A stretch of 64,000 bases of DNA from Chloroflexota bacterium (GTDB taxonomy: Bacteria > Chloroflexota > Dehalococcoidia > Bin125). Below, piece after piece: positions 50,164 through 59,076 of the stretch. Position 1 is the stretch's first letter; each line of letters starts with the position of its first letter. A model generated the notes under the pieces. The model was not told where the DNA came from, searched no databases, and saw nothing but the letters and a program-made list of their open reading frames with translations. The stretch is from assembly GCA_028874365.1 (NCBI GenBank), contig JAPPJZ010000044.1:1-64000 (forward strand). Direction: 5' to 3'. Made by a program: the position numbers and the translations under genes.

Positions 50164-51780
50164 ATGGAATTGCTATTCACCGGTGGACGAGTGTTGACGA
50201 TCGATGCCATGGATCGGATCGCCTCCGGTGTCGCGGTGCGCGACGGGAGGATCGTGGCGGTCGGCGACAGCGCCGACGTTCACAATGCAGTCGGCCCCGA
50301 TGCCACTCACGTCGATCTGCGCGGTCGCGCACTTGTACCGGGGTTCTGCGACCCGCACAATCACTTCTCGATGACTACGTTTGAGCCGCGCTCGGTCGAC
50401 TGCCGCAGGCCGCCACTGGCGAGCAAGTCGGCGGTGCTCGACGCAATCGCGGCGGCCGCGTCCGGCAGCCCCGCCGGACAGTGGATCTGGGGGCTGGGCT
50501 TCTCGCAGAGCGAACCGGGCATCGTGACCGACGACATGCTGTTTCGCGATGAGCTGGACGAGGTCGCTCCGAACAACCCGGTGTGTGTGATGGATTCGTC
50601 GTATCACGCCTGCTACGCCAACTCGGCTGCGCTGGCGATGGTGGGGATCGACCGCGACACGCCCGATCCGCGGGGTGGGAACATCCTGCACGACGACAGC
50701 GGGGAGCCGAACGGCGTGCTCTGGGAGCGGGCGATGGACCCGGTTCATCACGCGACGATGCGTTCGTACATCGACACGTTCGGTCCCGACGTGGTGGCCG
50801 GACTGGTGGAACAGAACGCCCTGCGCCATCTTTCGCACGGGATCACGAGCGTCGGCGACGCCCTGGTGATGCCCGAGAGCGCGGAGATCTACCGGCTGAC
50901 CGACGAGCGCGGACGGTTGCCGATCGCGATTCACCAGATGCGCGGCGGCCCCGGATTCTTCGCGGCGCCCGAGGACGCTGCTGCCGGCGCCTACATGGAC
51001 GATGACGTCTCCGACCGCCTGCGCGGCGGGATTGTCAAGATCTTCATGGATCCGGTCTGGCCCTCTCCAGCAATGGAGCTCTGCCATCCCGACGGCACGA
51101 CCGAGCCGGTCGGCGAGCCGTACTACGGGCAGGAGGAAGTCGACCACCTGGTGCTCGATGCGGCGTCGCACGGACTGCAGGTGGCGATTCACTGCATCGG
51201 CAACCGGGCGGTGGAACAGGGGTTGAACGAATTCGAGCGCGCGCTGCGCGAGACCCCCGGCGACGATCGCCGCTTCCGGATTGAACACTTCATGTTCGCC
51301 ACGAGTGAGCAGATCGAGCGTGCGCAGTCGCTCGGGGTGATGATCTCGCACCAGCCGCCGTTCCTGCATTTGCTTGGCGACTATTTTGAGCAGGCCACCG
51401 CTCAGCCGGGGATTGACGCGGTTCCGATGCCGTATCGCTCGATGTTGGATGCTGGCGTCCACGTGGCATCAGGGTCCGATTTCCCCTGTGCGCCGGTGCC
51501 TCCTCTACTTGGCCTGTATGGACTGACCACGCGAACGTCGCGCGATGGCACGGTGATTGCCGCCGACGAGGCGATCCATCCGCTGGAGGCGCTGCGCACG
51601 TACACGCTCAACTCGGCCGCGGCGATGTTCCGCGACCACGAGGTGGGCTCAGTCGAGGTCGGGAAGCGCGCCGATCTTGCGGTGCTGAGCCACGATCCGA
51701 CGCTCGTTGACTCGACCTACATCCGCGAGATCGTAGTGCAGCAGACGTACGTGGACGGGGAGTTGCTGTACTCGGTCTAG
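50164..51780 (+). CDS. YtcJ-type amidohydrolase, copy A
   Basis: A 538-residue metal-dependent amidohydrolase (amidohydrolase 3/YtcJ group). Metal ligands are H65 and H67 in GFCDPHNHFSM, a His in QVAIHCIGNRAVE, another in RIEHFMFAT, and the Asp in ASGSDFPCAPVPP; a Lys in GGIVKIFMDPVW may be carbamylated. The group hydrolyses amide or formamide bonds of cyclic or N-substituted compounds. ATG 50164 follows AGGAGGAGCC. A GTTAGCCTCGGATGG element at about 50120-50134 also precedes copy C. It is closely similar over its whole length to 57469-59076. Its stop overlaps the sterol-methyltransferase stop in CTAG. Confidence 0.9.
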   Translation: MELLFTGGRVLTIDAMDRIASGVAVRDGRIVAVGDSADVHNAVGPDATHVDLRGRALVPGFCDPHNHFSMTTFEPRSVDCRRPPLASKSAVLDAIAAAASGSPAGQWIWGLGFSQSEPGIVTDDMLFRDELDEVAPNNPVCVMDSSYHACYANSAALAMVGIDRDTPDPRGGNILHDDSGEPNGVLWERAMDPVHHATMRSYIDTFGPDVVAGLVEQNALRHLSHGITSVGDALVMPESAEIYRLTDERGRLPIAIHQMRGGPGFFAAPEDAAAGAYMDDDVSDRLRGGIVKIFMDPVWPSPAMELCHPDGTTEPVGEPYYGQEEVDHLVLDAASHGLQVAIHCIGNRAVEQGLNEFERALRETPGDDRRFRIEHFMFATSEQIERAQSLGVMISHQPPFLHLLGDYFEQATAQPGIDAVPMPYRSMLDAGVHVASGSDFPCAPVPPLLGLYGLTTRTSRDGTVIAADEAIHPLEALRTYTLNSAAAMFRDHEVGSVEVGKRADLAVLSHDPTLVDSTYIREIVVQQTYVDGELLYSV

Positions 51781-52793
51781 GGGGTTGGTTTGCGGGCGTG
51801 GACGAGGAAGCTGGGGGTGAAGATTTCCAGTTCGCCGGCTTCGACCAGGGCATCGGCGGCGATGTTGAGGAACGTGGCGGTCTCGCCGGTGCCCGCCGGG
51901 ACGATGCGCAGCAGCTCGAGGAACTTCGTCACTGTCTCCGTGAAGCGCCGTCCAGTCGGAGTTCGGGCCCATGAAGACAGCGAGAAATCGCGTCCCTGGA
52001 GCGCCATGTACCACGGGGTTAGCGGGTTGCCGTTCTCGGCCTGCTGATCGATCGCCTGGATGATCTCGAAGCCGGCCTGTTGAACGGTCTCTACCTGTTG
52101 CCCCGTGGTGAGCAGGTCCGGCGTCGCGTTATTGGTCTCGATGCGTCTGCGAAGGTCCTGATGACGGGCGTCGTTGGCGTCGAACTTGTCGGTGAAGCAC
52201 CAATCGACGATGGCGATCTCGCCGCCGGGCTTGACCAGGCGGTACAGCTCCTGGAAGAGGAGCAGGTTGTTGGGGGCGTGACAGACCGCCTCGAAGGAAT
52301 AGATGGCGTCGAATGTCTCATCTTCCAGCGGTACGTCCATGAAGTTGGCATAGAGGAACTGGCAGGTGTCGTTGAGGCCCGCCTTGGCTACGAATCGCTC
52401 GCCTCGGGCGATCTGCAAGGGGCTGAAGTTGATCCCAGTGATGCTGGCGCCGGTGGCTTGCGCAATGGTGATCATTGGCCCGGCGACGCCGCAACCGATG
52501 TCTGCGACTTTCATGCCCGGTTTGAGACGCAGGATCTCGCCGATCTCGCGGTCGTGCCGTCGTTGAGACTCGGCGAGGTTCTCCCCGGGACGACGCGGCG
52601 AGAAGTGGAAGGTGGTGCCCCAGCCGAACTCGTAGAACCGCGTGACGGCGTCGTAGAAGCGGCTGACGAGTTTCGGCTGCTGCTCGATCCGGGCGGCGTC
52701 CTCCTGCGATTCGCTCAGTTGCTGAATCTGGTGGTAGTCGCGCAGTGCCTGGCGAGGATTGCCGCTGCGTTGTTCGTCTACGTCAGTTGGCAC
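51777..52793 (-). CDS. Sterol C-24 methyltransferase homologue (SMT/Erg6-like)
   Basis: A 338-residue SAM methyltransferase with all the regions known from Erg6/SMT: region I VTRFYEFGWGTTFHFSPR (family YEYGWG), the SAM motif ADIGCGVAGPMITIA (family LDVGCGVGGP), region III IYSFEAVCHAPNN (family IEATCHAP), a TDKFDANDARH stretch, and the C-terminal sterol-methyltransferase part NPLTPWYMALQGRD through LEIFTPSFLVHARKP. It should transfer a methyl group to a sterol or other isoprenoid side chain. No squalene epoxidase or cyclase is in the window. It is 46 bp after DUF1330 copy A on the same strand, in an apparent operon NCS2-DUF1330-SMT. Confidence 0.82.
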   Translation of the reverse strand: MPTDVDEQRSGNPRQALRDYHQIQQLSESQEDAARIEQQPKLVSRFYDAVTRFYEFGWGTTFHFSPRRPGENLAESQRRHDREIGEILRLKPGMKVADIGCGVAGPMITIAQATGASITGINFSPLQIARGERFVAKAGLNDTCQFLYANFMDVPLEDETFDAIYSFEAVCHAPNNLLLFQELYRLVKPGGEIAIVDWCFTDKFDANDARHQDLRRRIETNNATPDLLTTGQQVETVQQAGFEIIQAIDQQAENGNPLTPWYMALQGRDFSLSSWARTPTGRRFTETVTKFLELLRIVPAGTGETATFLNIAADALVEAGELEIFTPSFLVHARKPTP

Positions 52794-52839
52794 GGCGTCA
52801 CCTGGCCTCTCAGAAGGCGCCCGGAATCTGCGGTCTGTA

Positions 52840-53133
52840 TCAGCCGTCGTAGCCGTCGACGACGACGAGTTGTGACGTCAACGCTCGGTGGCGAAGCTCG
52901 TCGAGAGATCGAAAGTCGTCGGACTCGATGAATGCGACGGCAGCGTCACGGCTGTCGAACTCCATGATCACGAGTCGCTCGGGCGACCAATCACCTTCGA
53001 GCACCGCGACGTTGCCGCCCCGCACGAGGAAGCGGCCGCCGTGTGCGGCGAGGGCCTCGCCAACCGGTCCGACGAATTCCGAGAATGCCTCCTGGTCGAT
53101 CACTTCGTTGTCGATGACGACGTAGCCCTTCAT
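52840..53133 (-). CDS. DUF1330 family protein, copy A
   Basis: A 97-residue ferredoxin-like fold protein. KGYVVIDNEVIDQEAFSEF, GGRFLVRGGNVAVLEGDW, ERLVIMEFDSRDAAVAFIES and the end are typical DUF1330. Such proteins form dimers; their function is unknown, although they are often found beside catabolic genes. Copy B at 55166-55459 has the same length and clear similarity. It lies 75 bp downstream of the NCS2 transporter start side gene and 46 bp before the methyltransferase. Confidence 0.85.
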   Translation of the reverse strand: MKGYVVIDNEVIDQEAFSEFVGPVGEALAAHGGRFLVRGGNVAVLEGDWSPERLVIMEFDSRDAAVAFIESDDFRSLDELRHRALTSQLVVVDGYDG

Positions 53134-53208
53134 GGCAGCCTTTCCTCTCGTGTGAACCCGCGCGGCCGTTGCGTAGGGTAACTGGCGGGGATGTTGCGGC
53201 GGGCGGAG

Positions 53209-54945
53209 TCATTTGCGCGTTCCCTCAACTTCGACCGTCACGATGTCGATGCCGTAGTACTTGCGATGCCGGACGGCGCTGGCATAGAGGCCGAGCAGGC
53301 GGAACGAGAGATCGTTCACCTCGGGCGTCTCGGTCTGCTCACTGATGTACGCGATTCGATCCTCAATGTTCTCCTCGGAGAAGAGGGCGAGGAACTCCAG
53401 CTCCACCGAACCGGAGCCCGGACGCGCGTTGAGCACGACGCGCGGGGGCTGCTCGGCCTCGTGGTCCTCGCGCAACTGCATCATCGCCGAGAGGGTCTCC
53501 TCGCCGGCGGCGTGCAGACGGTCGATTGATGCCTGGTTCCATCGCAGACCGGAGCCGAGTTTGCGCAGGAAGGCCTCGATGTCGGGCAGGGCCGACAGGT
53601 CGAGGACCGTCTCCAGCCGCCGACGCCGCGCGCCGGTCAGTTCCAGCACGAGGGTCAGCAGGACCGCGAGCAACACGCCGACGAGTACGCCGTTGCTCAG
53701 CACACCGACCCAGGCGCCGCCGATGGAGTCCAGCAAGCCGGTCTGACTCTGCAGGCCGAAGCAGGCCGCGAGCGGCAGACCGGCGATGAACGCGCGCTGC
53801 CGGTTGAGCCCCTCGCGTGTCACGCTGCGCATGCCCTCGGCGAAGAGCAACCCCATGATCACCATGAGCAACGCTCCGCTGACCGGACGGGGGATGGTGA
53901 GCAGCATGGCCACCGCCTTGGGCAGCAGCGCCAGTACGACCAGGATGACGCCCATGACGATGCCGACTCGCCGCGAGGCCACCCCGGTGAAGCTGAACAG
54001 GGGGAGCGTCGAGGCCGTGTAGGGGATCGCGGGCGGGGTACCCGCCAGTCCGGAGCACAGCACGGCCACACCGCAGACGTTGAGCGTGCGCTGCACGCCG
54101 CGGAAGTCGACGGTCCGAGGTATGCGCACGGAGGCCTGCTGAATCGTGGCGCTCTCGCCGCTGGCTCGGACGGAGAGCACGAGATTGATAATGAGGAAGA
54201 CGAGCAGCAAGGCCCAGAAGTCCTCGCTCAAGACCGAGGCGAAGCCGGGCCAGCCGCCGACCTCGGGCAGATCCATCCAGGCAGCGTCCCGAACTCGTTG
54301 CACGTCGTAGACACCGAGCGCTACCGCCACGATGCAGCCGCCGACGGTGGCGATCGGCAGCGCCCAGAGGCTCCAGAGGCCGGTCCCGCGCAAGATCAGC
54401 AACGCCGTCAGAGCCAGGGTCGCCAGGCCCACTGCAGGTCCGGCGATGTCGGAAGCGCCTTCAGGTACGTCGTTCAGCCGCTCGAGCGCGATCGGCATCG
54501 CCGTGAGCGCGATCATCATCAACGCGGCGCCGGAGACGACCGGCGTTATCAGGCGCCTCAGGCGCGCCAGCCAGGCGGCGACGGCGAACTGGATCAGCGA
54601 TGAGACCACGACCAGGCTCGACATCAACGCCAGGCCGCCCGCTTCGACGGCGAGCACGCAGACGGCAAGAAAGGTGACGCCCGGACCCAGCATCAGGAGG
54701 TGGCCCGGCCCGACTCGACCCAGCCGCGACGCGTGTAGCGCCGTGGCGAGCCCGGCGACGATCAGCGAGCCAACGATCGCCCAGGCGGCGTAGCTGCCAT
54801 CGTCGTTGAAGGCCGCAGAGAAAATCACCACGAACGTGACCGTGGTCGTGACGGCGAGGACTGCGCCCTGAAAGGCCACGTTGAGCGTCAAGAGCCGCGG
54901 CGCCGGCTCGTCCGGTTCGTAGCGGATGTGCTCGTTCGCCGCCAT
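53209..54945 (-). CDS. NCS2-type transporter with C-terminal GHKL/RsbW-like domain, copy A
   Basis: A 578-residue protein. Residues 1-445 form a transporter of about 12-14 helices of the nucleobase-cation symporter 2 kind: LRRLITPVVSGAALMMIALT and GTPPAIPYTASTLPLFSF plus TGVASRRVG fit NCS2. The usual acidic residue of TM8 is not evident, so the substrate may differ from xanthine or uracil. The last ~125 residues are soluble; IDRLHAAGEETLSAMMQL, a strand VELEFLALFSEENIEDR and FRLLGLYASAVRHRKYYG recall a degenerate HATPase/RsbW fold. It is followed by DUF1330 and SMT. Copy B is 55537-57273. Confidence 0.75.
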   Translation of the reverse strand: MAANEHIRYEPDEPAPRLLTLNVAFQGAVLAVTTTVTFVVIFSAAFNDDGSYAAWAIVGSLIVAGLATALHASRLGRVGPGHLLMLGPGVTFLAVCVLAVEAGGLALMSSLVVVSSLIQFAVAAWLARLRRLITPVVSGAALMMIALTAMPIALERLNDVPEGASDIAGPAVGLATLALTALLILRGTGLWSLWALPIATVGGCIVAVALGVYDVQRVRDAAWMDLPEVGGWPGFASVLSEDFWALLLVFLIINLVLSVRASGESATIQQASVRIPRTVDFRGVQRTLNVCGVAVLCSGLAGTPPAIPYTASTLPLFSFTGVASRRVGIVMGVILVVLALLPKAVAMLLTIPRPVSGALLMVIMGLLFAEGMRSVTREGLNRQRAFIAGLPLAACFGLQSQTGLLDSIGGAWVGVLSNGVLVGVLLAVLLTLVLELTGARRRRLETVLDLSALPDIEAFLRKLGSGLRWNQASIDRLHAAGEETLSAMMQLREDHEAEQPPRVVLNARPGSGSVELEFLALFSEENIEDRIAYISEQTETPEVNDLSFRLLGLYASAVRHRKYYGIDIVTVEVEGTRK

Positions 54946-54999
54946 CTCGTTCGACCCGTGATTTGTCAGCTGTCGCCGTCAGCCGGTGGCTGCGTTCCA

Positions 55000-55107
55000 G
55001 TGCAGGTGCTGCCGGCCTCTGATCCGAGGCTGGTCGGCATGATCTGGACTCGCGAGATCGTAGTGCAACGGACCTTCGCGGGTGGGGAGCTGCTGTACTC
55101 GGTGTGA
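55000..55107 (+). pseudogene. C-terminal remnant of a third YtcJ-type amidohydrolase
   Basis: Translation from about 55000 reads VQVLPASDPRLV, then MIWTREIVVQRTFAGGELLY and SV-stop. The intact copies end DPTLVDSTYIREIVVQQTY and DGELLYSV-stop, so the match is clear to the last codon. Nothing similar lies before 55000. Only the last ~36 codons remain, between NCS2 copy A and DUF1330 copy B, exactly where an amidohydrolase would stand if the cassette were complete. The front ~500 codons were deleted. Confidence 0.85.
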
Positions 55108-55165
55108 TTGCCCGTTCGTTGCGGGAGGACAGCTCAGGGTGTCGTAGCAGGAACGCGCAGGTGCT

Positions 55166-55459
55166 CTAGCCTTTGAAGCCGGCGGCCACCACGACGCTTG
55201 ATCGCACCGCCCGCAGGCGAAGCTGATCGAGCGCTGTGTACTGGGTTGAGCGGACAAATTCGGCGGCGCCGTCGTCGCTGTCGAAGCTCATGATCACGAG
55301 GCGCTGCGGCGTCCAGTCGCCCTCAATGACATCCAGGTCGCTGCCTCGCACCAGGAACGTGCCGCCCCGAGCGATGACGGCATCGTAGATCTTCACTGCG
55401 AACTCTGAGAACGCGTCCTCGTCGATCACTTCGGTGTCGATGACCAGGTAGCTACTCAT
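55166..55459 (-). CDS. DUF1330 family protein, copy B
   Basis: A 97-residue DUF1330 protein, identical in length to copy A and similar along it: SSYLVIDTEVIDEDAFSEF, GGTFLVRGSDLDVIEGDW and RLVIMSFDSDDGAAEFVRS align without gaps. ATG 55459 is used, because the longer frame to 55483 lacks matching sequence in copy A. It lies 77 bp downstream of NCS2 copy B, as copy A does from its transporter (75 bp), so the gene pair was duplicated as a unit. Confidence 0.85.
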   Translation of the reverse strand: MSSYLVIDTEVIDEDAFSEFAVKIYDAVIARGGTFLVRGSDLDVIEGDWTPQRLVIMSFDSDDGAAEFVRSTQYTALDQLRLRAVRSSVVVAAGFKG

Positions 55460-55536
55460 CTCGGCGAGTCCTCTCTGCTGCATCAGGGCTCGTTGCCCGG
55501 TGTTGAACTGATGAGATCACAAACGGGTCGCATTCA

Positions 55537-57273
55537 CTATCGCGAACCCTCGACCTCGACCGTCACGATATCAACACCGTAGTACTTGCGATGCCGCACC
55601 GACGACGCATAGAAGCGCAACAAGCGGAACGAGATGTCGCCTACGTCTGGCTCCTCGGCCTGCTCGCTCAGGTATGCGACGCGGTCCTCAAGGTTCTCTT
55701 CGGAGAACAGCGCAAGAAACTCCAGCTCGACCGATTCACCGCCGGGTCGTGCGATCAGCACGAGCCGGGGCGGCTCGTCTGACTCGTAGTCGTCGCGCAG
55801 GTTCAGCATGGCTGAAAGTGTTTCCTCGCCGGCCGCGTGCAGACGGTCGATCGATTGCTGGTTCCAACGCAAATCGGCGCCGAGCTTGCGCAGGAACGCC
55901 TCGATCTCGGGCAAGGCCGATACGTCGAGTTCAGTTTCCAGACGCCGTGGCCGAGGACGGGAACCGGCGAGCTCGAGCACCACGGTCATCAGCACGGCGG
56001 CGGACACCCCGAAGACAACGCCATTGCCGAGCGTCGCTCCCCAGGTGCCGCCGATCACGTCGGCCAGGATGTTCTGGCTCTGAAGGCCGACTGCGATCGA
56101 GAGCGAGGTCCCGACAATCGCCGCTCGCTGGCGGTTGAGTCCGTCTCGCAAGACGGTGCGCATGCCTTCGACGAACAGCAGCCCCATGATCACCAACAAC
56201 AACGCGCCGCTGACGGGTCGTGGAATCGTGAGCAGCATCGCGACGATCTTGGGCAGCAAGGCGGCCACGACCAGCATCACGCCGATCGTGATCCCGACGC
56301 GCCGGGCCGCGACGCCGGTGAACTGGAACAGCGAAATGGTCGACGGGAGGTAGGCGATCGTCGGCGGCGTTCCGGCGATCCCGGAGAGTAGGATGGCGAT
56401 CCCGCCCACATTCAGGGTCCGCTGCACCCCGCGAAAGTCGATGCTGCGGGGCTCGCGCCGGGAGGCTTGTTGGATCGCTGCTCCCTCGCTGCTGGAGCGG
56501 ACCGCGACGACCGCGCTGACGACGAGGAAGACCAGCAACAGGGCCCAGAAATCCTCGTCGAGCACCGAGCCGAATCCGGGCCAGCCGGCGACCTGGGGCA
56601 GGTCGAACCAGGGCGCGTCGATCGCTCGTTGGATGTCGTACACGCCCAGCGGCACCGCGATCGCACAGCCTCCGATCAGTGCGATCGGCAGGGCCCAGAG
56701 GCGCCAGAGTCCGGTCCCGAGCAGCATCAGCAGCGCGGTGATGGCCAAGGTCGCCACTCCCACGCCAGGACCGGCCGCGTCGCTGACGCCCGCGGGGACG
56801 TCGTTGAGCCGTGCGAGCGCAATCGGCATGGCGGAGAGGGCAATCATCATGAAGGCGACGCCGGAGACGACCGGCGTGATCAATCGGCGTAGCTGGGCGA
56901 GGCGAGCGGCCACGACGAACTGGATCAACGAGGACGCGATCACGAGGCTCGACATCAACGCCAGTCCGCCCTGTTCCACCGCTAGCACGCAGGCCGCCAG
57001 AAAGGGGACGCCGGAACCCATCAGGAGGACGTGTCCCGGTCCCAGGCGGCCAATCTTCGAGGCGTGCAGCGCCGTGGAGACGCCGGCCACGATCAGCGCG
57101 CCGACGATGGCCCAGGCCATGTAACTACCGTCGTCGTTGAACGCCGCCGAGAAGATGACCACGAACGTGACCACGTTGGAGACGATCAGGACCATGCCCT
57201 GAACGGCAACGTTGAGCGTCAGCAGCGGCGGAACAGGCTCGTCCGGTTCGCAGCGGATGTGGTCGTTGGCCAC
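55537..57273 (-). CDS. NCS2-type transporter with C-terminal GHKL/RsbW-like domain, copy B
   Basis: A 578-residue paralogue of copy A, exactly the same length and similar in both the membrane part and the soluble tail. The start MANDHIRCEPDEPVPPLLTL matches MAANEHIRYEPDEPAPRLLT of copy A; RRLITPVVSGVAFMMIALSA and GTPPTIAYLPSTISLFQF mark the NCS2 core. The tail keeps IDRLHAAGEETLSAMLNL and LLRFYASSVRHRKYYGVDIV almost unchanged, which suggests the extra domain is under selection. It is divergent from amidohydrolase copy C with 195 bp between them. Confidence 0.75.
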   Translation of the reverse strand: MANDHIRCEPDEPVPPLLTLNVAVQGMVLIVSNVVTFVVIFSAAFNDDGSYMAWAIVGALIVAGVSTALHASKIGRLGPGHVLLMGSGVPFLAACVLAVEQGGLALMSSLVIASSLIQFVVAARLAQLRRLITPVVSGVAFMMIALSAMPIALARLNDVPAGVSDAAGPGVGVATLAITALLMLLGTGLWRLWALPIALIGGCAIAVPLGVYDIQRAIDAPWFDLPQVAGWPGFGSVLDEDFWALLLVFLVVSAVVAVRSSSEGAAIQQASRREPRSIDFRGVQRTLNVGGIAILLSGIAGTPPTIAYLPSTISLFQFTGVAARRVGITIGVMLVVAALLPKIVAMLLTIPRPVSGALLLVIMGLLFVEGMRTVLRDGLNRQRAAIVGTSLSIAVGLQSQNILADVIGGTWGATLGNGVVFGVSAAVLMTVVLELAGSRPRPRRLETELDVSALPEIEAFLRKLGADLRWNQQSIDRLHAAGEETLSAMLNLRDDYESDEPPRLVLIARPGGESVELEFLALFSEENLEDRVAYLSEQAEEPDVGDISFRLLRFYASSVRHRKYYGVDIVTVEVEGSR

Positions 57274-57423
57274 TGCCGTCGCCTGTCCAGTACCTCTCCG
57301 GCAGCGGCAATCAATCCGAGAGTTTGCATCCGCCGGGAACGAGCGCGGTTCGCTTCTCGGAACCGAACCGCCGCATCAGGCTACGGCCTTGGACCGGGAG
57401 TCACGGCGTCGCGGAGCAGGTTC

Positions 57424-57438
57424 GTTAGCCTCTGACGG
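57424..57438 (+). promoter_or_regulatory. Shared upstream element of amidohydrolase copies (copy C)
   Basis: GTTAGCCTCTGACGG, with 13 of 15 bases the same as in the element before copy A and the same distance from the start codon. It lies in the divergent region between transporter and amidohydrolase. Confidence 0.45.
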
Positions 57439-57468
57439 ATCCAGAGTCCGTTCTACGAGGAGGCCGAG

Positions 57469-59076
57469 ATGGAACAGTTGTTCACCGGTGGTCGGGTACT
57501 GACGATGGACGGACTCGATCGAATCGCGTCAGGAGTCGCCGTGCGCGACGGCAAGATCATCGCGGTCGGCGACAGCGATGAGGTACGGAGGCAAGTCGGC
57601 CCCGAGGCGACTCACGTTGACCTGCGCGGCCGCGCATTGATTCCCGGCTTCTGCGATCCGCACAACCACTTCTCGATGACGACGTTCGAGCCGCGCTCGG
57701 TCGATTGCCGGATCCCGCCTCTGGCCGGCAAACCGGCAGTGCTCGACGCCATCGCCGCCGCGGCGGAAGCCGCTCCCATTGGCCAGTGGGTCTGGGGGCT
57801 CGGTTACAGCGCCCGACACGCCAACGGCGGCTGGCTGACGCGGGACGAACTGGACGACGTGGCGCCCGACAATCCGATCTGTGTGATGGACTACTCCTAC
57901 CACGCCAGTTACGCCAACTCGGCCGCGATGTCGATCGCCGGGATCAACTTCGAAACGCCCGATCCGCGCGGCGGCCAGATCTTGCGCGACGAGAGTGGCG
58001 AGGCGACAGGGATGCTCTATGAGCGGGCTTCGGATCTCGTGCATCAGGCGTCGATGCGCGCGCACATCGACACGCTCGGTCCGGAGATCGTGGCCGACTT
58101 GGTAGAGCAGAACGCGCTGCGTCACCTCTCGCACGGTGTGACCAGCGTCGGCGACGCGGTCGTGATGCCGGAGAGCGCCGAGATGTACCGCTACGCGGAC
58201 GACCGCGGCAAGCTGCCGATCGTGATCCACCAGATGCGCGGCGGCAACGGCTTCTTCGCGGCGCCCGAGGCCGCCGCCAATGGCGCATTCCTGCAGGACG
58301 ACGTCTCCGATCGGCTGCGTGGGGGGATCGTGAAGCTGTTCATGGACCCGGTGTATCCATCGAACGCGCTGCGCAAGTGCCACGCCGACGGCACGTTCGA
58401 GGATGTCGGCGAGCCCTACTACAACCAGGACGAGGTCGATCAGCTCGTGCTCAACGCGGCCTCGCACGGGCTGCAGACGGCGATTCACTGTCTTGGCAAC
58501 CGCGCGATCGAGCAGGCGCTCAATACCTACGAGCGCGTCCAGCGCGAGATCCCTCGCAGCGACGCCCGCTACCGGATCGAGCACTTCTTCTTCGCCGACC
58601 CGGGCCAGATGGAGCGCGCCGCCTCGCTGGGCGTGATCATCTCGCACCAGCCTGCCTTCCTCTACTCAGTCGGGCAGGGCTTCGTCGACTTCATCGCCGA
58701 GGCCGGCCTGACGATCCCGCCGCTGCCCTACCGCTCGTTCCTCGACGCGGGCGTCACGGTGGCCTCCGGTTCCGACTTCCCCTGCGCGCCGGTCGAGCCG
58801 CTGATTGGGCTGTACGGCCTCACCGCTCGCCGCTCTCGGGAGGGTGACGTCATCGCGGAGGAAGAGACGCTCTCAGCACTCGAAGCGTTGCGCACGCAGA
58901 CGATCAACTCGGCGGTCGCGATGTTCCGCGACGATGAGGTTGGTTCGATTGAGGTCGGCAAGCGGGCTGATTTGGTCGTGCTGAGTCATGATCCAACGCT
59001 CGTCGATCCGGAGTCGATTCGCGACATCGTGGTGCAGCAGACGTATGTGGATGGGAAGTTGTTGTATTCGGTCTAG
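57469..59076 (+). CDS. YtcJ-type amidohydrolase, copy C
   Basis: A 535-residue paralogue of 50164-51780, with the same metal motifs: GFCDPHNHFSMTTFEPRSVD, TAIHCLGNRAIE, RIEHFFFAD and ASGSDFPCAPVEPL. The main difference is around residues 105-120, where this copy reads YSARHANGGWLTRDELD instead of the FSQSEPGIVTDDML type, so the substrate pockets may differ. ATG 57469 follows GAGGAGGCC. It is divergent from NCS2 copy B. Its stop shares CTAG with the VOC gene. Confidence 0.9.
   Translation: MEQLFTGGRVLTMDGLDRIASGVAVRDGKIIAVGDSDEVRRQVGPEATHVDLRGRALIPGFCDPHNHFSMTTFEPRSVDCRIPPLAGKPAVLDAIAAAAEAAPIGQWVWGLGYSARHANGGWLTRDELDDVAPDNPICVMDYSYHASYANSAAMSIAGINFETPDPRGGQILRDESGEATGMLYERASDLVHQASMRAHIDTLGPEIVADLVEQNALRHLSHGVTSVGDAVVMPESAEMYRYADDRGKLPIVIHQMRGGNGFFAAPEAAANGAFLQDDVSDRLRGGIVKLFMDPVYPSNALRKCHADGTFEDVGEPYYNQDEVDQLVLNAASHGLQTAIHCLGNRAIEQALNTYERVQREIPRSDARYRIEHFFFADPGQMERAASLGVIISHQPAFLYSVGQGFVDFIAEAGLTIPPLPYRSFLDAGVTVASGSDFPCAPVEPLIGLYGLTARRSREGDVIAEEETLSALEALRTQTINSAVAMFRDDEVGSIEVGKRADLVVLSHDPTLVDPESIRDIVVQQTYVDGKLLYSV

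Follow-up and report, generated by a model that had tools for sequence, protein, structure and literature searches.

Gene content of the array

The locus studied here occupies positions 50164-59076 of a 64,000-nucleotide stretch of DNA, which we call the window. Its host is probably a sponge-associated lineage of SAR202 type, judging from the bin names of its relatives' MAGs (Dehalococcoidia/Chloroflexi). The features of the array, with the evidence for each, are as follows.

50164-51780, + strand: AH_A, YtcJ/Amidohydro_3-type amidohydrolase, 538 aa, metal ligands intact (ORF, Pfam)
51777-52793, - strand: SAM-dependent methyltransferase with a Sterol_MT_C domain (Sterol_MT_C/CMAS), 338 aa (Pfam 75 bits, cut-off 21.7)
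52840-53133, - strand: DUF1330 A, 97 aa, lineage A (ORF, Pfam, tree, AU test)
53209-54945, - strand: NCS2_A, NAT-fold transporter with a predicted C-terminal RsbW-like domain, 578 aa, lineage A (Pfam, tree)
53212-53643, - strand: predicted RsbW/SpoIIAB-like C-terminal domain of NCS2_A (77% identity to the modelled NCS2_B domain)
55021-55107, + strand: C-terminal relic of a third amidohydrolase, 28 codons plus stop codon (repeat search, protein similarity)
55166-55459, - strand: DUF1330 B, 97 aa, lineage B (ORF, Pfam, tree)
55537-57273, - strand: NCS2_B, NAT-fold transporter with a predicted C-terminal RsbW-like domain, 578 aa, lineage B (Pfam, tree)
55540-55971, - strand: predicted RsbW/SpoIIAB-like C-terminal domain of NCS2_B (structure model)
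57469-59076, + strand: AH_B, YtcJ/Amidohydro_3-type amidohydrolase, 535 aa, metal ligands intact (ORF, Pfam)

Open reading frames and Pfam matches agree with an earlier note on this DNA in placing two amidohydrolases, two DUF1330 genes and two NCS2 transporters here. That note did not name the methyltransferase inside the array (51777-52793), which separates AH_A from DUF1330 A and has a stop codon overlapping that of AH_A. Amidohydro_3 matches AH_A and AH_B with 295-298 bits, far above the cut-off, and the DUF1330 matches are full length (97.5 and 70.6 bits vs. a cut-off of 23). DUF1330 B is 97 aa long when read from 55459; a start at 55483 gives a longer ORF of 105 aa.

A repeat search gave DNA identities of 70–79% between AH_A and AH_B and 70–74% between the NCS2 copies, well above what chance would give, and a three-copy repeat family that takes in 55021-55103. 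The relic there translates as DPRLVGMIWTREIVVQRTFAGGELLYSV, in frame to a stop codon shared with the other two copies, and matches amidohydrolase C-termini with an E-value of 5e-7. Over its 87 bases it has 50–65 matches to every amidohydrolase copy, the best being AH_A of the window's genome (G000) and of G001. The third-amidohydrolase tail reported in the earlier note at 55000-55107 is thus real and in frame, but similarity starts only at 55021. The 58 bases between the relic and DUF1330 B match none of the other spacers. The described layout stands: a leading amidohydrolase is followed by two DUF1330(-)-NCS2(-)-amidohydrolase(+) units, in one of which the amidohydrolase has decayed. As for the noncoding signals also claimed as conserved, the intergenic gaps do measure 75 and 77 bp, but the spacer sequences are hardly alike (z 1.8), and the amidohydrolase upstream element shrinks to about 17 bases spanning the ribosome-binding site.

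AH_A and AH_B match YtcJ-type Amidohydro_3 hydrolases (3igh, 3icj) over their full length and share their metal ligands: HNH, K, H, H and D are conserved in each amidohydrolase copy that covers those positions. They differ in their distance from relatives outside the genus, the best of which is 54% identical (G024) and the others 31–35%. Both fall far below every NCBIfam deaminase cut-off.

A divergent transporter with an RsbW-like tail

The membrane part of the window transporters is matched over its whole length by Xan_ur_permease (125 and 135 bits, cut-off 27), as expected of NCS2/NAT carriers (SLC23; UraA, XanQ), and can be aligned to UraA (3qe7) and SVCT1 (7ytw). They differ from these carriers in residues of TMS1 and TMS10 and in the extra C-terminal domain. 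Canonical nucleobase/ascorbate carriers are marked by NAT signature motifs, Q-H in TMS1 and [QEP]-N-x-G-x4-T-[GRK] in TMS10 (PMC5972032). The place of the TMS1 Gln-His is taken by Gln25-Gly26, invariant in 11 aligned proteins, and that of the TMS10 [QEP]-N-x-G by S-T-I-S in NCS2_B and S-T-L-P in NCS2_A. Glu263 is invariant in the A/B-type alignment, in which the glycine is out of register. By their signature residues, then, NCS2_A and NCS2_B are not canonical nucleobase carriers. Further divergent prokaryotic NAT branches without known function exist (PMC5972032).

On another contig (C59:12664-14325; L062) the genome encodes a further NCS2-RsbW fusion, only distantly related (27%), in which an HATPase_c_2 domain can be recognised. 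This paralogue reads E-T-V-G-D in the Glu263 region. By eye its neighbours resemble hopanoid genes (squalene synthase-like, squalene-hopene cyclase-like), and the neighbourhood occurs in four genomes.

The C-terminal 144 residues of the window transporters (about 435-578) matched no Pfam family. A model of the NCS2_B domain built from 11 sequences reached a pLDDT of 81; the full-length NCS2_B model was poor (pLDDT 51) and was not used, and the structural comparison therefore concerns the C-terminal domain only. Foldseek placed this model with RsbW/SpoIIAB (E 4e-7), and almost all of its 23 top rows belong to that family. The VIA comparison aligned it to 6m37_C over 115/115 residues (Z 15.0, 2.2 Å), against a Z of about 6.8 for the top matches that are not anti-sigma, SiaB or LvrC proteins. 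Sequence evidence obtained independently of the model points the same way: the C59 paralogue matches HATPase_c_2 at the same place in the protein (40.4 bits, cut-off 27.4), although hhalign connects the profiles of the A/B and C59 domains only weakly (probability 6%). The C-terminal part of the transporter is thus predicted to have the RsbW/SpoIIAB anti-sigma (GHKL) fold.

RsbW/SpoIIAB kinases bind nucleotide through motifs that include the N-box asparagine and DxGxG. The likeness of the window domain to these anti-sigma kinases is one of predicted fold (VIA Z 13–15); it differs from them in being fused to a transporter, with the N-box asparagine replaced and the G1 box unrecognisable. A/B-type proteins read GEETLS[AS]M at the N-box (11/11 rows) and have no DxGxG, so kinase activity of the A/B-type domain appears unlikely from its sequence.

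SLC26 carriers offer a parallel: PMC6497670 describes a 7+7 membrane architecture like that of SLC23 plus a C-terminal regulatory STAS domain, and on that description the window transporters resemble SLC26/SulP in both membrane architecture and possession of a C-terminal domain. STAS has the anti-sigma-antagonist fold (PMC8256260). The difference is that STAS is the RsbV/SpoIIAA-type partner, whereas the window domain resembles the other partner, RsbW/SpoIIAB. STAS proteins are encoded in the window's genome (C21:77017-77301, C30:552-860) and could be candidate partners of the RsbW-like tail. On contig C21 (77017-77772) of that genome a STAS gene and an HATPase_c_2 gene are immediate neighbours, much as RsbV and RsbW are. 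In the open-access literature searched we found no description of an RsbW-NCS2 fusion and nothing relevant on DUF1330 function.

The locus in sister genomes and the history of its two units

Among same-genus genomes that keep the locus, only that of the window has two DUF1330-NCS2 pairs in it. One pair, in the order AH_A-...-DUF1330 B-NCS2_B-AH_B, is present in G001, G002, G004, G009, G010, G011 and G014. Between AH_A and DUF1330, the methyltransferase is found in G002, G004, G009, G011 and G014, a KshA-like Rieske oxygenase is often also present in the sisters, and G001 and G010 have neither gene. The methyltransferase abuts DUF1330 B in six sister genomes. G003 keeps methyltransferase-DUF1330-NCS2, with the methyltransferase beside DUF1330, and has no amidohydrolase on the NCS2 side. 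The next gene there resembles the usual follower of AH_B, and on the other side are just short amidohydrolase-like scraps. The main locus retains one amidohydrolase in G005, two flanking a Rieske gene, but without a transporter, in G008, and one with the methyltransferase in G013. These three genomes carry their DUF1330-NCS2 pairs elsewhere, at three different sites with no common neighbours and no amidohydrolase. The lineage A pair of G013 (L065:10886-11304) adjoins a tRNA-Arg gene, and a four-tRNA cluster lies about 6 kb away on the transporter's other side.

In sister genomes this methyltransferase and the KshA-like Rieske oxygenase are neighbours (L069:6360-7490). Three further paralogues of the methyltransferase (34–43%) are encoded in the window's genome. 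Since sterol methyltransferases have been described in bacterial sponge symbionts (PMC10070321), a sterol or hopanoid role for the window methyltransferase is possible by analogy.

Orthologues of AH_A in sister genomes are 82–94% identical and those of NCS2_B 87–94%. Both genes are under purifying selection between sister genomes (dN/dS about 0.02–0.03), with high dS; several pairs gave no value, probably owing to saturation. In G004, AH_A (L066:12279-13885) is in two pieces in different frames, with a stop, and is another decaying amidohydrolase. G010 also carries an amidohydrolase C-terminal relic. The sister-locus comparison, with its losses, split AH_A and relics, indicates that amidohydrolases have repeatedly been gained, lost and broken in this genus. 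A decayed NCS2 gene lies on contig C14 of the window's genome (135930-136475; L079:9377-9976), with its last third left and 82% identity to the full-length G009 copy.

Phylogenetic trees separate the two units. NCS2_A clusters with the copies that G005, G008 and G013 carry away from the main locus (support 100/99) and NCS2_B with the main-locus copies. The amidohydrolases split into an AH_A and an AH_B group, both of which include orthologues from many species. AU tests reject sisterhood of the A and B copies for NCS2 (p 6e-55), DUF1330 (p 1e-4) and the amidohydrolases (p 3e-17), so the array is not a recent duplication. As a recent event, the tandem duplication of one cassette that the earlier note proposed is not supported for any of the three families. 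G005, G008 and G013 are scattered in the rpoB tree (the G010 row was disregarded), and lineage A is therefore patchy. With NCS2_A just 77% identical to its closest relatives, no recent donor of lineage A is seen. By sequence comparison, the lineage A pair is an old separate lineage, extra at this locus.

Methyltransferase and DUF1330 are separated by 46 bases, 42–43 of which are identical between the window and its sisters, and this methyltransferase-side spacer abuts DUF1330 A in the window and DUF1330 B in the sisters. The units switch at the 3' end of DUF1330, which is conserved, and this position fits what recombination there would leave. We saw no tRNA, flanking repeats or mobile-element marks at the window site.

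When 400 Chloroflexota genomes sampled across the phylum were searched with the C-terminal domain, 32 proved to carry it, mostly in 3–6 copies each and nearly always in frames long enough for the whole transporter. DUF1330 lies directly downstream of the fused transporter in several families, mostly 50–120 bases away, though not for every copy. On contigs reaching that far, no relative of the window amidohydrolase turned up in the 8 kb or so around these units, and the three families were seen as neighbours only within this genus. Because the pair recurs across families and the amidohydrolase link was seen in this genus only, the stable association is that of transporter and DUF1330; the amidohydrolase is not an obligate partner. 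The adjacency of all three families thus holds within the genus, but elsewhere in the sampled phylum only DUF1330-NCS2 keeps together. Selection of the cassette as one unit, as the earlier note suggested, finds no support in this, nor in the genus itself, where the pair has no amidohydrolase beside it in G003 and lies apart from it in G005, G008 and G013. Tandem pairs of NCS2-RsbW fusions occur in a distant family (G180:C2, G218:C30, G242:C210, G288:C14, G336:C210), so tandem copies of the fused carrier are not confined to the window.

Interpretation of the array

The array is a single genome's version of an often-rearranged locus, and the fused transporter is its unusual part. From gene content, predicted fold, pair conservation, trees and locus comparison, we infer how transport, regulation and chemistry at the locus may work; we give the joint reading that follows a probability of roughly 55%. 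On this reading the core is a conserved two-gene unit, a divergent NAT/NCS2-fold transporter with an RsbW/SpoIIAB-like C-terminal domain and DUF1330 directly after it. Within the genus this core is joined to YtcJ-type amidohydrolases as AH_A-(Rieske, methyltransferase)-DUF1330-NCS2-AH_B, and in the window's genome a second core unit, of older lineage, sits between the methyltransferase and the original unit, beside an amidohydrolase stub. That unit may have arrived by transfer or may be an ancestral one that other genomes lost; the spacer beside the stub, which matches no other, favours neither. The transporter may import a small organic compound other than a standard nucleobase, with the RsbW-like domain playing a regulatory or dimerising role in the cytoplasm, comparable to that of STAS in SLC26 carriers. 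DUF1330 might act on the imported compound or sequester it, and the amidohydrolases might hydrolyse it or a derivative. The sequence of the locus favours no particular substrate.

Two other accounts concern the origin of the second unit. Lineage A might be a mobile gene pair, horizontally transferred and inserted by recombination at the DUF1330 end. Its patchy presence in G000, G005, G008 and G013, scattered in the rpoB tree, is what such a pair would produce, as are three other sites sharing no neighbours, the tRNA-Arg adjoining it in G013 and a switch exactly at the DUF1330 end. The window site, however, shows neither tRNA nor flanking repeats, a two-gene insert leaves the amidohydrolase stub unexplained, and at 77% to the nearest relatives of NCS2_A no recent donor is seen; we regard transfer as a possibility to be held tentatively. 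In the earlier note's model, a DUF1330-NCS2-amidohydrolase cassette was tandemly duplicated as a functional unit of one import-and-hydrolysis pathway and one amidohydrolase then decayed: layout and stub beside DUF1330 B fit an ancestral AH-DUF-NCS2-AH-DUF-NCS2-AH, and most genus genomes with lineage B have an amidohydrolase on both sides. That account is doubtful, given that none of the three families has its A and B copies as sisters, sister genomes have one unit, the pair lacks an adjacent amidohydrolase in G003 and at the displaced sites of G005, G008 and G013, and other families keep the pair without one.

As for function, the best matches of the transporter, Xan_ur_permease in Pfam and pbuX in NCBIfam, would suit canonical purine or pyrimidine salvage, in which NCS2 imports a nucleobase that the amidohydrolase deaminates or opens. 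We consider this quite improbable: the pbuX score is 165 against a cut-off of 414, TMS10 [QEP]-N-x-G has become S/T-T-x-x and TMS1 Q-H has become Q-G in the A/B relatives (motifs as in PMC5972032), and the amidohydrolases score as no NCBIfam deaminase. The loss of these signature residues likewise weakens the earlier suggestion of a nucleobase-like compound. Within the reading we prefer, that of a conserved transporter-DUF1330 core, a more speculative and on balance unlikely extension is that the RsbW-like tail, depending on the state of transport, engages a STAS protein or a sigma factor. Nutrient import would then be tied to gene expression in a system that mirrors SLC26-STAS and has DUF1330 as its dedicated third part.

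The array displays gene birth and decay around one locus among close genomes. If the preferred reading is true, DUF1330, a family without an assigned function, would gain a testable context, and the fused carrier would suggest a new way of regulating transport.
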